This document shows positions 1 to 3,639 of a DNA stretch of 44,097 nucleotides, piece by piece. Both the position numbers and the translations under genes were made by a program. Source of the DNA: Desulfovibrio sp. (lineage in GTDB: Bacteria > Bacillota > Dethiobacteria > DTU022); NCBI GenBank assembly GCA_020060545.1, contig JAGUZX010000130.1, forward strand, positions 1 to 44,097. Reading direction: 5' to 3'. A model generated the notes under the pieces. That model worked only from the letters and a program-made list of their open reading frames with translations, had not been told where the DNA came from and did no database searches. Within the stretch, counting starts at the first letter, position 1. Every line of letters begins with the position of its first letter.

Positions 1-881
1 AAGTTGATGCCCATCAAGAGCGGGTAATCGCGGGAGATCACCGCCTGGATATTGAGCGTGCCCATGCCGGGCCAGGTGAAAACCGTCTCGGTAATGATGG
101 CGCCCGAAAATACATAGGGCAGACTGAGGCCGAGAATGGTGATCACCGGGAGCAGGGCGTTGCGCAACGCATGCTTGTAAATGACCACCCTTTCGGAGAG
201 GCCTTTAGCCCGGGCGGTGCGGATATAATCCTGCCGGATCACTTCAAGCATGCTCGAGCGGACATAGCGCAGCCAGGAGGCGATACTGGCCGCGGAAAGG
301 ACAAACAACGGCAGCACCAGGTGATGGCCGATATCCTTGGCCCTCTCCAGCCAGTTGGCGTGCTCGAGCCCGGGGGTGACCATGTTATTGATCGGAAACC
401 AGCCAAAATCGAAAGCAAAAATCTTGATCATCGCTATCCCCAGGAAAAACACCGGGATCGACACCCCGGCCATGGCCAGGATGGTGAACAGGTAGTCCAT
501 GCGGGAGTACTGCTTGGTGGCCGAAAGGACACCGATCGGGACGGCAATGATAAAGCTGAAAAAAAGCGAGGCGAAAGAAAGCAGGAAGGTCGGAAAGAGA
601 CGGGACTTGATTATTTCGGTGACCGGCTTCTTAAAGCGGATTGAGTAACCAAGATTGCCCGAAAGGGTGTGCCTCAGCCAGGTGATATATTGAACATGCA
701 CCGGCTTGTCCACACCCAACTGCTCGGCCCTTCTTTGAAAGGCTTCCTTGCTCAGGTTAGGATCAATCAGGTTCGACATCGGATTTCCCGGCGCGGCGCT
801 TATGATCAGAAAAATAAAGACGGAGATGCCGAAAAGAGTGGGCACTAGCTGCAGTATCCTGCGAATAAGAAACTGTCTCAC
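1..881 (-). CDS. ABC transporter permease, DppB/OppB type (3' end outside window)
   Basis: Inner-membrane permease of a peptide/nickel-class ABC importer. Translating the minus strand from a GTG at 879-881 gives a protein beginning MRQFLIRRILQLVPTLFG, the usual first helix of DppB-like permeases, followed by SAAPGNP, several hydrophobic helices and the permease signature ARAKGLSERVVIYKHALRNA (the EAA loop that contacts the ATPase). The frame stays open to base 1, ending near ISRDYPLLMGIN, so only about 30 residues are missing compared with the family's usual length. The GTG has an AGGAGG six bases upstream; the GTG directly before it (882-884) is too close to that site. It lies 89 bp downstream of the binding-protein gene on the same strand, so the two probably form one transport operon continuing outside the window. 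The transported substrate cannot be read from the sequence. Confidence 0.9.
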   Translation of the reverse strand, partial: MRQFLIRRILQLVPTLFGISVFIFLIISAAPGNPMSNLIDPNLSKEAFQRRAEQLGVDKPVHVQYITWLRHTLSGNLGYSIRFKKPVTEIIKSRLFPTFLLSFASLFFSFIIAVPIGVLSATKQYSRMDYLFTILAMAGVSIPVFFLGIAMIKIFAFDFGWFPINNMVTPGLEHANWLERAKDIGHHLVLPLFVLSAASIASWLRYVRSSMLEVIRQDYIRTARAKGLSERVVIYKHALRNALLPVITILGLSLPYVFSGAIITETVFTWPGMGTLNIQAVISRDYPLLMGIN

Positions 882-911
882 CACTTGCCTCCTTTCAGAG
901 GATCTGAATCA

Positions 912-946
912 ATACTGTGTCCCGGCCGGCAGCCGGGACACAGTAT
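912..946 (-). other. Perfect 14-bp stem-loop between binding protein and permease genes
   Basis: Arms 912-925 and 933-946 are exact reverse complements (ATACTGTGTCCCGG) with a 7-base loop. No T-run follows on the minus strand, so it is not a classic terminator. In binding-protein operons such hairpins often protect the upstream mRNA from 3' decay, giving more binding protein than permease; that role is inferred. Confidence 0.7.
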
Positions 947-970: not shown

Positions 971-2677
971 TTAGTTGGTCGGCTTGACCAGCAAGCCTTC
1001 CTTGTTGTACTTGTAGCCGGCTTTCTTGAGCAGCTCTTTCGCCTTCTCCGGGTTGTACGGGTAAGGCTTGATGTCAGGGTTAAAAGCCCAGCTGACGGAA
1101 GACATGTGCGACGCCTGGACGATGCCCATGCCGTCCAGCAGGCCTTCCACCATCGCCTCGCGGTTGATCGCATAGGTGAGCGCCTGGCGTACCAGCTTGT
1201 TGGAGAGGAACGGGTGGCGCATATTGATCCCCATGTACTGGTAACCGTTTTGCGCGTACTCGGCGATCGTGATATGCGGCGCCTTTTTAAATTCCGCCCA
1301 GTCGTCGGCGTTGGGCTGCATCCAGGCGATATCGATGTCTTTATTCAGCAGGCTCGGTACGGCGACGTCACGGTTGTGGATCGCAATGATTAGTTTATCG
1401 AGCTTGGGCGCACCGTAAACATAGTCCGGGTTCTTGACCAGTTCAAAGTACTGCCCCTGTACGTACTTGCTGAACTTGAAGGGGCCGCAGCCGATCGGAT
1501 TGGTGGTAACGCCCGGGTGCTTCTCGAGGTCCTTAATCGGGGTGCCTTCGAAAACGTGCTTGGGCGAGATCCCCCAGGTCGACACGAGCAGGTGGGCGGG
1601 CGCATCCACTTCCGCGAAATGGAACTCGATTTCGTAGTCGCCCTTCACCACAATGCCCGGTAACTCTTCGGCATATACTATGTTGCCGTTCGCATCTTTC
1701 TTCCGCACAACATTGCCTTCGGCATCTTTCACTACATTGCCTTGAGCATCTTTTTCAGGATAACCGTTCCTGTACTCGTCGAAACCTCTCAGCTTCATCC
1801 ATGAATCCGCGCGCACCCCGGTGTAGTCCGGGTCGCACATCCACAGGAAAGTGAACGCCACGTCATGAGCGGTTACCGGCTTGCCGTCATGCCACTTGAC
1901 GTCTTCGCGCAGCTTGTAGGAGAAAACCAGCCCGTCGTCCGAGACATCCCATTCGCTGGCGATCCCCGGCTTGTAGCTGAGGTCCGGGTTGGTATTGAGC
2001 AGCCCCATGAAGATCGGATCGTGGCAGTCCGCGTCGTAGGCGCTCTCGGAAAGGTTCGGGTTGAAGATGCCGTCCGGCGCCGACCACATGGCGTAGACGA
2101 TCTCATTCTTGCCGGAGGTCACTTCCCACTTCTCGAGGTCGAAGTATTTCCCGAAGGGGTTCGGCTTGAACTCCTTCAGCCGGTTGTTGTAAACATGAGC
2201 CTCCAGCCCGGCGTAGAGCCAGACGTAGGGGCACTCGTCGTAAAGAATCTCCATCCATTCCCAGTAGATCGGCTTGCGGAGCTCGATGTCCACGACGCCC
2301 CGGCCCTGGAGCAGCAGCTCGTCGCTCTTCGGATTGTCAAGCCCCACCGCGTTCCACTTCATGTCTTTGAGCCAGATCCCCGATGCGTCGGGGTCGGCGC
2401 CGAGGCGCCAGCCCATCAGGTAAAGCTCGAAATCAACGTTATCGTAAACCTTCTCCGCCAGGGTGGCGAATTCCATGATGTCAAGGTTCACCTTGATCCC
2501 GATCGCTTCCAGGTTCTCCTTGATCAGCTCCGCGGAAGCCATCCGCACGGGGTTCCCGGTGGGGTAGCTTAAGGTCAGCTCAATGGGATCCCCCACCACT
2601 TCTTTGGCGCAGCCTCCCGCGAATACTGGCACCAGCAGCAGTACTGCCAGCAGCATAAGTAAACCTTTTTTCAACAC
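971..2677 (-). CDS. Lipoprotein substrate-binding protein of ABC transporter (SBP_bac_5), apparently circularly permuted
   Basis: Extracytoplasmic binding protein for the adjacent permease, 568 residues. It starts at GTG 2675-2677 with GGGGGAAG upstream. Residues 1-22 are a lipoprotein signal peptide with lipobox FAGGC, so Cys23 should carry the lipid. The order of the mature protein is unusual. Residues about 27-187 (from ELTLSYPTGN through LYLMGWRLGADPD to FDLEKWEV) look like the C-terminal piece of a normal family 5 binding protein. Residues about 188-568 (from NEIVYAMWSAPDGIFNPN through DVKWHDGKPVTAHDVAFTF and LVRQALTYAINREAMVEG to KAKELLKKAGYKYNKEGLL) look like the normal mature N-terminus and middle. 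The protein stops just where a normal one would continue into ELTLSYPTGN. Residues about 308-334 hold a small internal repeat. The family assignment is firm; the permutation is inferred from remembered family order. Peptide, nickel or another ligand is possible. Confidence 0.88.
   Translation of the reverse strand: MLKKGLLMLLAVLLLVPVFAGGCAKEVVGDPIELTLSYPTGNPVRMASAELIKENLEAIGIKVNLDIMEFATLAEKVYDNVDFELYLMGWRLGADPDASGIWLKDMKWNAVGLDNPKSDELLLQGRGVVDIELRKPIYWEWMEILYDECPYVWLYAGLEAHVYNNRLKEFKPNPFGKYFDLEKWEVTSGKNEIVYAMWSAPDGIFNPNLSESAYDADCHDPIFMGLLNTNPDLSYKPGIASEWDVSDDGLVFSYKLREDVKWHDGKPVTAHDVAFTFLWMCDPDYTGVRADSWMKLRGFDEYRNGYPEKDAQGNVVKDAEGNVVRKKDANGNIVYAEELPGIVVKGDYEIEFHFAEVDAPAHLLVSTWGISPKHVFEGTPIKDLEKHPGVTTNPIGCGPFKFSKYVQGQYFELVKNPDYVYGAPKLDKLIIAIHNRDVAVPSLLNKDIDIAWMQPNADDWAEFKKAPHITIAEYAQNGYQYMGINMRHPFLSNKLVRQALTYAINREAMVEGLLDGMGIVQASHMSSVSWAFNPDIKPYPYNPEKAKELLKKAGYKYNKEGLLVKPTN
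1676..1753 (-). repeat. Three imperfect 24-bp repeats inside the binding protein gene
   Basis: Units at 1730-1753, 1706-1729 and 1676-1699 (the last separated by six bases) encode KDAQGNVV, KDAEGNVV and KDANGNIV. They are in frame and lie in a loop between two conserved SBP_bac_5 blocks, so they look like a recent in-frame expansion of a surface loop. Confidence 0.8.
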
Positions 2678-3072
2678 GTTCCAACTTCCCCCTTTTTGAG
2701 TATGCTTTTACTATTTTTCAAACGCGATCCGCTCTTGCCGGCAACCACCTCCTTTTCTAAACAGCCCGTTTTTGGTCAGGCCCAATTATGGTTGGTCTCT
2801 CCGGCTGATGCGCTGTCATGGCTTACCGGCGGCGTTTCAAAAAAAAACTTGTTGCCGGCGAATTGAACAAGCCAACCAAAAATATTTATTCTCCAAAGGC
2901 ATTGATATTTCCTTTTTTTAATTTTCGATAATTTATAGTTTTTGCCGACCGGGGGCGCGTGATCGGCGGAAACGGAAAAGGCTCCGGGTGTATTAACATT
3001 ATTACAAAAAGCGCGCTTCAAAAAAAGAGGGCGGTTATTCCGCTTAAGCAGGACAACCATCCCTTTTTTTGA
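2678..3072. other. Intergenic stretch between tRNA cluster and ABC operon
   Basis: I see no convincing gene in these 395 bp. An open frame at 2776-3060 on the minus strand (94 codons) has no recognisable domain, odd composition and only a weak ribosome-binding site. An AGGAGGTGG sequence (minus strand, 2745-2753) has no matching open frame at normal spacing. The stretch should contain the promoter of the ABC operon, but no clear -35/-10 pair stands out. Confidence 0.5.
3004..3043 (-). terminator. Candidate terminator of the tRNA operon
   Basis: On the minus strand a short hairpin GCGGAATAACCGC (3031-3043) is followed by CCTCTTTTTTT, then a second self-complementary AAGCGCGCTT (3009-3018) with another short T-run. 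It lies about 30 bp after tRNA-Leu and fits a rho-independent end, although both stems are short. Confidence 0.45.
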
Positions 3073-3161
3073 TGGTGCCGGGAACCGGAATCGAACCGGT
3101 ACGGGTAATAATACCCGAGGGATTTTAAGTCCCTTGCGTCTGCCTGTTCCGCCATCCCGGC
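3073..3161 (-). tRNA. tRNA-Leu (UAA)
   Basis: Acceptor stem GCCGGGA/TCCCGGC with discriminator A and encoded CCA. The anticodon loop ACTTAAAA gives anticodon UAA. The long variable arm typical of Leu is present, as is a GGTTCGATTCC T arm. It is the last gene of a five-tRNA cluster. Confidence 0.97.
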
Positions 3162-3169
3162 AAAAAAAA

Positions 3170-3243
3170 TGGAGGCGACACCCGGATTCGAACCGGGGGT
3201 AAAGGATTTGCAGTCCTCTGCCTTACCACTTGGCTATGTCGCC
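3170..3243 (-). tRNA. tRNA-Cys (GCA)
   Basis: A 74-nt cloverleaf with acceptor GGCGACA/TGTCGCC, anticodon GCA in loop ACTGCAAA, T arm GGTTCGAATCC and encoded CCA. It lies eight bases upstream of tRNA-Leu in the same transcript. Confidence 0.97.
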
Positions 3244-3251
3244 TTAAAAAA

Positions 3252-3326
3252 TGGAGCGGAAGACGGGATTTGAACCCGCGACCCTCGCCTTGGCAAGGCG
3301 ATGCTCTACCGCTGAGCCACTTCCGC
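3252..3326 (-). tRNA. tRNA-Gly (GCC)
   Basis: A 75-nt cloverleaf with acceptor GCGGAAG/CTTCCGC, anticodon GCC in a CGCCTTGCCAAGGCG stem-loop, T arm GGTTCAAATCC and encoded CCA. Confidence 0.97.
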
Positions 3327-3331
3327 GTCAA

Positions 3332-3407
<76 letters not shown>

Positions 3408-3412
3408 AGGTA

Positions 3413-3491
3413 TGGCGGAGCTGACGGGACTCGAACCCGCGATCTCCGGCTTGACAGGCCGATATGTTAACCGACTACACCACAGCTCCGC
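3413..3491 (-). tRNA. tRNA-Asp (GTC)
   Basis: A 79-nt cloverleaf with acceptor GCGGAGC/GCTCCGC, anticodon GTC in CGGCCTGTCAAGCCG, T arm GGTTCGAGTCC and encoded CCA. It is the first gene of the cluster, directly behind a strong promoter. Confidence 0.97.
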
Positions 3492-3552: not shown

Positions 3553-3639
3553 GGGTCGCACGTGACATTGTGACATTAAATCACAGTTGCCGCCCATTAT
3601 GTTGAACCGGCGCTTAATGTCACAATGTCACGCGACCCC
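3553..3639. repeat. Long inverted repeat with internal GTGACATT duplication
   Basis: Arms 3561-3579 and 3614-3632 are exact 19-bp reverse complements (CGTGACATTGTGACATTAA) around a 34-base loop. Seven more pairs (GGGTCGC at 3553-3559) extend the stem past one unpaired base at 3560. Each arm holds GTGACATT as a tandem pair. It lies between rex and the tRNA promoter. No T-run follows. It may be a mobile palindromic element or a processing hairpin. Confidence 0.8.

Follow-up and report, generated by a model that had tools for sequence, protein, structure and literature searches.

Circular permutation is already known among natural proteins. One natural circular permutant among tethered substrate-binding proteins (SBPs) is Tp0684 (TpMglB-2), described as 'Type Ic / Cluster Bc', which still binds its ligand; its chain is cut in the N-lobe, the first three strands have moved to the C-terminus, the structure has a fourth hinge crossing, and a tether-related advantage has been proposed for it (PMC4990184). 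Glycine betaine-binding proteins are another group of SBPs that are related to one another by circular permutation (PMC2395249). The extra domain of SPH1118, a cluster C protein, comprises residues 41–47, 232–320 and 573–610, so that the N-terminal strand and the C-terminal tail of a cluster C protein are found in the same extra domain (PMC9314435). In DppA, R383 and D436 are used for the ligand, and the cleft docks on the scoop of DppB (PMC12136057). Here, we describe a family 5 / cluster C lipoprotein whose C-terminal part precedes its N-terminal part.

Swapped order of a family 5 binding protein

The window, by which we mean the whole 44,097-nt stretch of DNA analysed, is contig C61 of a 2.5-Mb assembly of 135 contigs. 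It contains a circularly permuted SBP_bac_5 lipoprotein gene for a protein of 568 residues at 971..2677, with a GTG start and a TAA stop. The open reading frame noticed there in the sequence-only reading is real, while its actual strand is the minus strand, as for all parts of the gene given below. The sequence AAGGGGGAAG (2685..2694, minus strand), 5' of the GTG, is a good Shine-Dalgarno match and the likely ribosome-binding site. The protein begins with a signal peptide and a lipobox, VPVFAGG followed by C23 (2609..2677), the cysteine being putatively lipidated. From the alignments, the former C-terminal part now stands in front (residues 30–186, positions 381–546 of the canonical HMM described below; 2120..2590) and the former N-terminal and middle part stands at the back (residues 192–568, HMM 49–379; 974..2104). 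Between them, the rotated alignment and the seam table place a linker, TSGKN (residues 187–191; 2105..2119), that joins the former C-terminus to the former N-terminus of the mature chain and reads KWEV-TSGKN-EIVYAMWS in context; the joint of the old ends had been put near residue 187, and its extent is now corrected. The new C-terminus ends in AGYKYNKEGLLVKPTN, whereas canonical proteins continue as DGxxYKDGxxLxxTLSYPTGN, that is, they run straight into the strand before which the permuted chain stops, just as had been noticed. The joint lies in the N-lobe and the new termini lie in a loop of the C-lobe, with 'AGYKYNKEG' on one side and 'IELTLSYP' on the other, and not in the inter-lobe hinge to which they had been assigned. 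The repeat listing and the alignment also revealed an insertion of imperfect 24-nt (8-aa) repeats, DAQGNVVK/DAEGNVVR/..DANGNIV (1676..1753), which is confined to the window permutant and absent from all aligned relatives.

The swapped order proposed in the sequence-only reading (signal peptide and lipobox, C-terminal third, N-terminal two thirds) was confirmed by PF00496, by a canonical HMM and by BLASTP. In a genome search with PF00496, two one-frame pieces were found at C61:2375-2584 (minus strand; profile 288–357) and 986-1975 (minus strand; profile 2–287), each exceeding the curated cut-off individually. Since profile positions 288–357 stand ahead of 2–287 in the chain, the protein is a permuted homologue and not an ordinary PF00496 member. 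With hmmscan, the protein matched in two stretches with a score of 304.6 bits against a cut-off of 32.4; the best stretch covers residues 235–562 (profile 2–285). Aligned separately, each piece matches the profile in the reversed profile order, and the co-linear match expected of an unpermuted protein was not found. The canonical HMM, built from 81 canonical-order relatives, matched residues 29–191 at positions 381–546 and then residues 190–565 at positions 49–379, with no real overlap between the pieces and no segment missing. Likewise, BLASTP against the canonical protein of genome G010 paired residues 185–565 with 26–377 and residues 29–184 with 379–534, so that nothing is lost or doubled. 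Canonical-order homologues from the GTDB family and class of the window, 40–60% identical, align with one clean seam, and canonical relatives rotated in silico align end to end with the window permutant. Chance is excluded by the E-values of the pieces (2e-80 and 1e-9) together with the same arrangement in other genomes. Among the 60 PDB chains listed for the junction segment, none matched continuously across the joint.

The operon of the window permutant is cut short: a DppB/OppB-type permease gene (PF00528 and PF19300 profile matches; 3..884, minus strand), presumed to be the cognate membrane subunit, adjoins the SBP gene and is itself truncated by the contig edge, and full dppBC-oppDF sets are seen with other permutants. 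Between the SBP stop and dppB, the inverted-repeat listing gives a 15-bp perfect hairpin (912..946, minus strand), which is probably an intra-operon stem limiting downstream expression. Just 5' of the permuted gene, we also observed five tRNA genes (Leu, Cys, Gly, Phe, Asp) at 3073–3489 on the same strand. A 19-bp perfect inverted repeat, CGTGACATTGTGACATTAA, is found at 3561–3632; its arms are separated by 34 nt, and it lies between these tRNA genes and a Rex-like gene.

Predicted fold, cleft and membrane tether

Two confident AlphaFold models of the window permutant, calculated from alignment A2, in which the C-fragment rows are partly misplaced, and from the smaller alignment A3, reached mean pLDDT values of 86.9 and 83.6 and pTM values of 0.68 and 0.80. 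The joint region was modelled with moderate confidence, residues 131–180 having block values of 71–89 in the A3 model and residues 131–170 having values of 42–63 in the A2 model. An order-dependent superposition on B. subtilis AppA (1xoc) placed only model residues 167–546, on 1xoc residues 20–358 (Z 26.7, 334 residues), and the second model gave a Z of 26.1. Order-dependent TM-scores to 1xoc were 0.54–0.58. The match list was filled by family 5 peptide, nickel and opine SBPs, indicating the cluster C fold for the AlphaFold model, and the order-dependent matches to AppA and the other cluster C proteins covered only about model residues 161–546 and the first 330–360 residues of the known structures. 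At the sequence level, both parts match 1xoc, residues 204–565 with 34–355 and residues 30–185 with 358–517. The restriction of the structure match to the back part, together with the sequence match of the front to the rest of 1xoc, indicates a permutant with a normal fold.

In E. coli DppA, the position equivalent to the seam of the window permutant is near residue 340. Since both chain ends of the cluster C protein SPH1118 belong to one extra domain, the old ends would be close to each other, and a link of five residues can suffice to join them in the N-lobe. The residues matching R383 and D436 of DppA are in the moved part; therefore, both parts must build one cleft. We consider it very probable that the gene encodes a functional family 5 / cluster C SBP lipoprotein of an Opp/Dpp-type importer with a circularly permuted chain. 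The fold, the cleft and the permease contacts would be as in AppA and OppA, with Venus-flytrap capture of the ligand and delivery to DppB/DppC. What would be altered is the connectivity of the chain and the membrane tether: with the termini opened in the C-lobe loop just ahead of the strand 'IELTLSYPTGN' and the signal peptide and lipobox placed on the new N-terminus, the tether would now be on the C-lobe instead of the N-lobe. A tether-related advantage of the kind proposed for TpMglB-2 would fit the window permutant. Read by eye, the export signals of permutants are Tat-type in haloarchaea and Sec-type in alphaproteobacteria, indicating that permutants are not restricted to one export or anchoring type. 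The score of the window permutant with the Opp4A equivalog model NF045467, 345 bits, is below the cut-off of 650, having been lowered by the permutation.

Distribution and origins of permuted binding proteins

In two MAGs of another genus, G016 and G053, an alignment-based contig scan retrieved full-length relatives with the same permuted order, 45% identical to the window permutant end to end; a single-protein scan of the genome contigs gave none. Between these two relatives, dN is 0.037 and dS is 0.29 (dN/dS about 0.13), indicating that the permuted protein is under purifying selection. In both genomes, an Opp-type operon begins with a distant canonical SBP gene, followed by dppB, dppC, oppD and oppF with the permuted SBP gene last (L030:9723-17424 in G016; L031:8113-15825 in G053), and one transporter may serve two binding proteins there.

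Permutants were also searched for on plasmids by tblastn with junction segments, to which a continuous match is possible for permuted proteins alone. Coverage reached 80% or more at a single place in 24 plasmid records with the window junction and in 49 with an alphaproteobacterial junction. All 15 plasmid loci that we examined with the canonical HMM of 81 proteins (L141–L153, L156 and L157) have the swapped order, 14 of them with the same seam. The same-seam permutants come from haloarchaea (Halostagnicola, Natrononativus, Halalkalicoccus, Haladaptatus, Halarchaeum, Halomarina and Haloarcula) and from alphaproteobacteria (Nitratireductor, Maritalea, Microvirga, Neorhizobium, Roseomonas and Ketogulonicigenium), and this haloarchaeal/alphaproteobacterial family sits on complete plasmids. 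An OppA-type protein of a Subdoligranulum variabile plasmid (L142:2912-4714; OY725879.1) has a different cut, in the N-terminal third, with HMM positions 156–535 followed by 49–154 and Ser-rich spacers at both new ends. Plasmid matches in Rhizobium rhizogenes (74% coverage) and Variovorax (79%) both proved canonical; partial junction coverage was therefore not counted. Four of the permuted SBP operons in alphaproteobacteria and haloarchaea (L145, L151, L153 and L157) adjoin M28-family peptidase genes, a hint of a shared peptide or amide substrate.

A further, OppA-type group, permuted at the same seam, was a chance find near a canonical gene in the Fermentithermobacillaceae DTU015. Among 398 genomes of the window's phylum, 9 carry end-to-end relatives, one of them the one-contig genome G281; in G281 and in G410, the five-gene operon SBP-dppB-dppC-oppD-oppF is complete and has no SBP other than the permutant. 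The canonical HMM also identified a permuted SBP_bac_5 protein in a Methanomethylicota archaeon MAG (L098:3362-5773; JASFYK010000038.1); its long C-terminal extension ends in a probable transmembrane helix, by which it is seemingly anchored at the new C-terminus. The search for homologues with the same order, which the sequence-only reading had proposed, thus succeeded in G016, G053 and further lineages, and the window permutant is not unique: the same rearrangement is present in unrelated bacteria and archaea. Its proposal of a natural circular permutant is borne out by the same order in independent genomes, in a one-contig genome and in complete plasmid records.

For the trees, every protein was aligned to the canonical HMM domain by domain, so that the permuted order no longer influences the result. 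The canonical protein of G086 came out as the sister of the window permutant (bootstrap/SH-aLRT 95/93), and that of G010 as the sister of the permutants from G016 and G053 (99/97). In AU tests, a single clade of the window, G016 and G053 permutants was rejected with the full alignment (p 1.5e-49) and with the N-part (p 3.5e-7); in the C-part tree alone, their independent origin is weakly supported (p 0.033). A single clade was also rejected for all sampled same-seam permutants (p 5.7e-131) and for the OppA-type permutants joined with the haloarchaeal/alphaproteobacterial ones (p 1.3e-4). The OppA-type group as one clade is compatible with the data (p 0.34), and its permutants may form a single clade. 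A canonical OppA (L171:917-2719; G012:C73) falls among the OppA-type permutants in the trees with moderate support, which may reflect either a reversion or two separate origins.

Since permutants stand beside canonical genes and a single clade is rejected, the simplest reading is that the same seam was permuted independently four times or more, and that a different cut arose once (Subdoligranulum). We think it likely that the loop before the C-part strand 'LTLxYPTGN' is a permutation hot spot of family 5, opened, with joining of the old ends, on four or more independent occasions across bacteria and archaea. Two of these openings would have occurred within one AppA-like clade of about 50% identity, and the export signal would each time have ended up on the C-lobe. 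The two AppA-like permuted lineages have similar linkers (VTSGKN in the window, VTSGDN/VTDGDN in the other), a likeness that fits independent origins poorly unless similar junctions or gene conversion are assumed.

Two other histories were weighed against repeated opening of this loop. One ancient permutation shared by all permuted SBP_bac_5 proteins, with the nearby canonical genes as reversions or tree errors, would account for the same seam in all cases but one, for the similar VTSG.N linker of the window and G053 proteins and for the grouping of permuted members in the tree beyond chance. We regard it as unlikely, because the AU tests reject one clade at all levels tested except within the OppA-type clade, and every reversion would itself be a new permutation. 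It is likewise improbable that one transferred permuted gene was partly overwritten by resident canonical genes with the joint and linker retained. Such gene conversion would explain similar linkers in two AppA-like lineages with different sister groups, but the full and N-part trees give G086 or G010 as the sister of the permutants, and the C-part tree agrees on G010, with G086 nearest to the window protein. On these trees, almost the entire gene would have to have been converted; the agreement of the C-part and N-part trees also makes simple recombination unnecessary.

As to the route by which the loop could have been opened, tandem SBP pairs lie directly 5' of dppBC-oppDF in G214 and G342, canonical relatives of the OppA-type permutants. 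A permuted gene would arise if such a pair lost the first N-part, the second signal peptide and the second C-part, and a permutation from tandem SBP duplication, as the sequence-only reading had suggested, is plausible. By this route, the C-part of a permutant would be expected to resemble the 5' copy of a pair and its N-part the 3' copy; in a chimera test of this expectation, the G214 and G342 pairs proved to be later, lineage-specific duplicates.

A degenerating duplication product that no longer works as a binding protein is a very unlikely description of the permuted gene: the 8-aa repeat insertion confined to the window copy would agree with decay, but the open reading frame is intact with its ribosome-binding site, signal peptide and lipobox, the relatives are under purifying selection, and there are complete operons in the OppA-type clade that encode no SBP besides the permutant. 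In the genome of the window, no normal-order orthologue was found, the other three SBP_bac_5 proteins being canonical and only 22–32% identical, and the assembly rearrangement that the sequence-only reading had wanted checked is excluded by the independent genomes. That a canonical SBP gene was broken and misjoined in assembly or binning, as its place near the start of a 44-kb contig in a 135-contig MAG might suggest, is scarcely credible for the window, where neither the reading frame nor the linker nor the new signal peptide shows any disruption, and is already refuted for the permuted family as a whole by the shared order in two MAGs of another genus, in one-contig G281 and in complete plasmid records, and by the purifying selection on the G016/G053 permutants.

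Implications and comparison with known permutants

To our knowledge, canonical and permuted orthologues that are 50–60% identical are rarely found side by side, and such pairs permit a direct comparison of folding, tethering and transport. The recurrence of one seam in unrelated hosts makes the choice of the cut testable in terms of foldability, membrane tether and duplication mechanics; if the hot spot is true, it would amount to a rare case of a natural experiment on protein topology carried out in replicate, and would suggest selection on the choice of the tethered lobe. For the construction of family 5 biosensors, the position of the natural cut offers a ready-made guide. In addition, permutants match PF00496 as two reversed pieces and score far under equivalog cut-offs such as that of Opp4A, so that they will be overlooked or given wrong names by annotation and coverage filters.

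Our literature search, which covered open-licence full texts and is weak evidence in this respect, found no published family 5 / cluster C permutant. Natural SBP permutants are known in other clusters; on this search, the family 5 case and the same-seam recurrence appear new, the recurrence being the more interesting of the two. The glycine betaine-binding case (PMC2395249) concerns another SBP group, in which the relation is structural and at low identity and not between orthologues that are 50–60% identical. Membership in the TpMglB-2-like Cluster Bc was ruled out by the cluster C profile and fold and by the cut between HMM positions 379 and 381: TpMglB-2 is a cluster B sugar-binding protein cut in the N-lobe, whereas the window permutant is a cluster C protein cut in the C-lobe. 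AppA of B. subtilis (1xoc), of family 5 / cluster C, is homologous over both parts and has the same fold over the aligned part but differs in its canonical order, with signal and anchor ahead of the N-lobe. The closest protein by sequence is the canonical orthologue of G086 (C69:13716-15227), which is 56–60% identical to the window permutant in each piece and has them in the canonical order.
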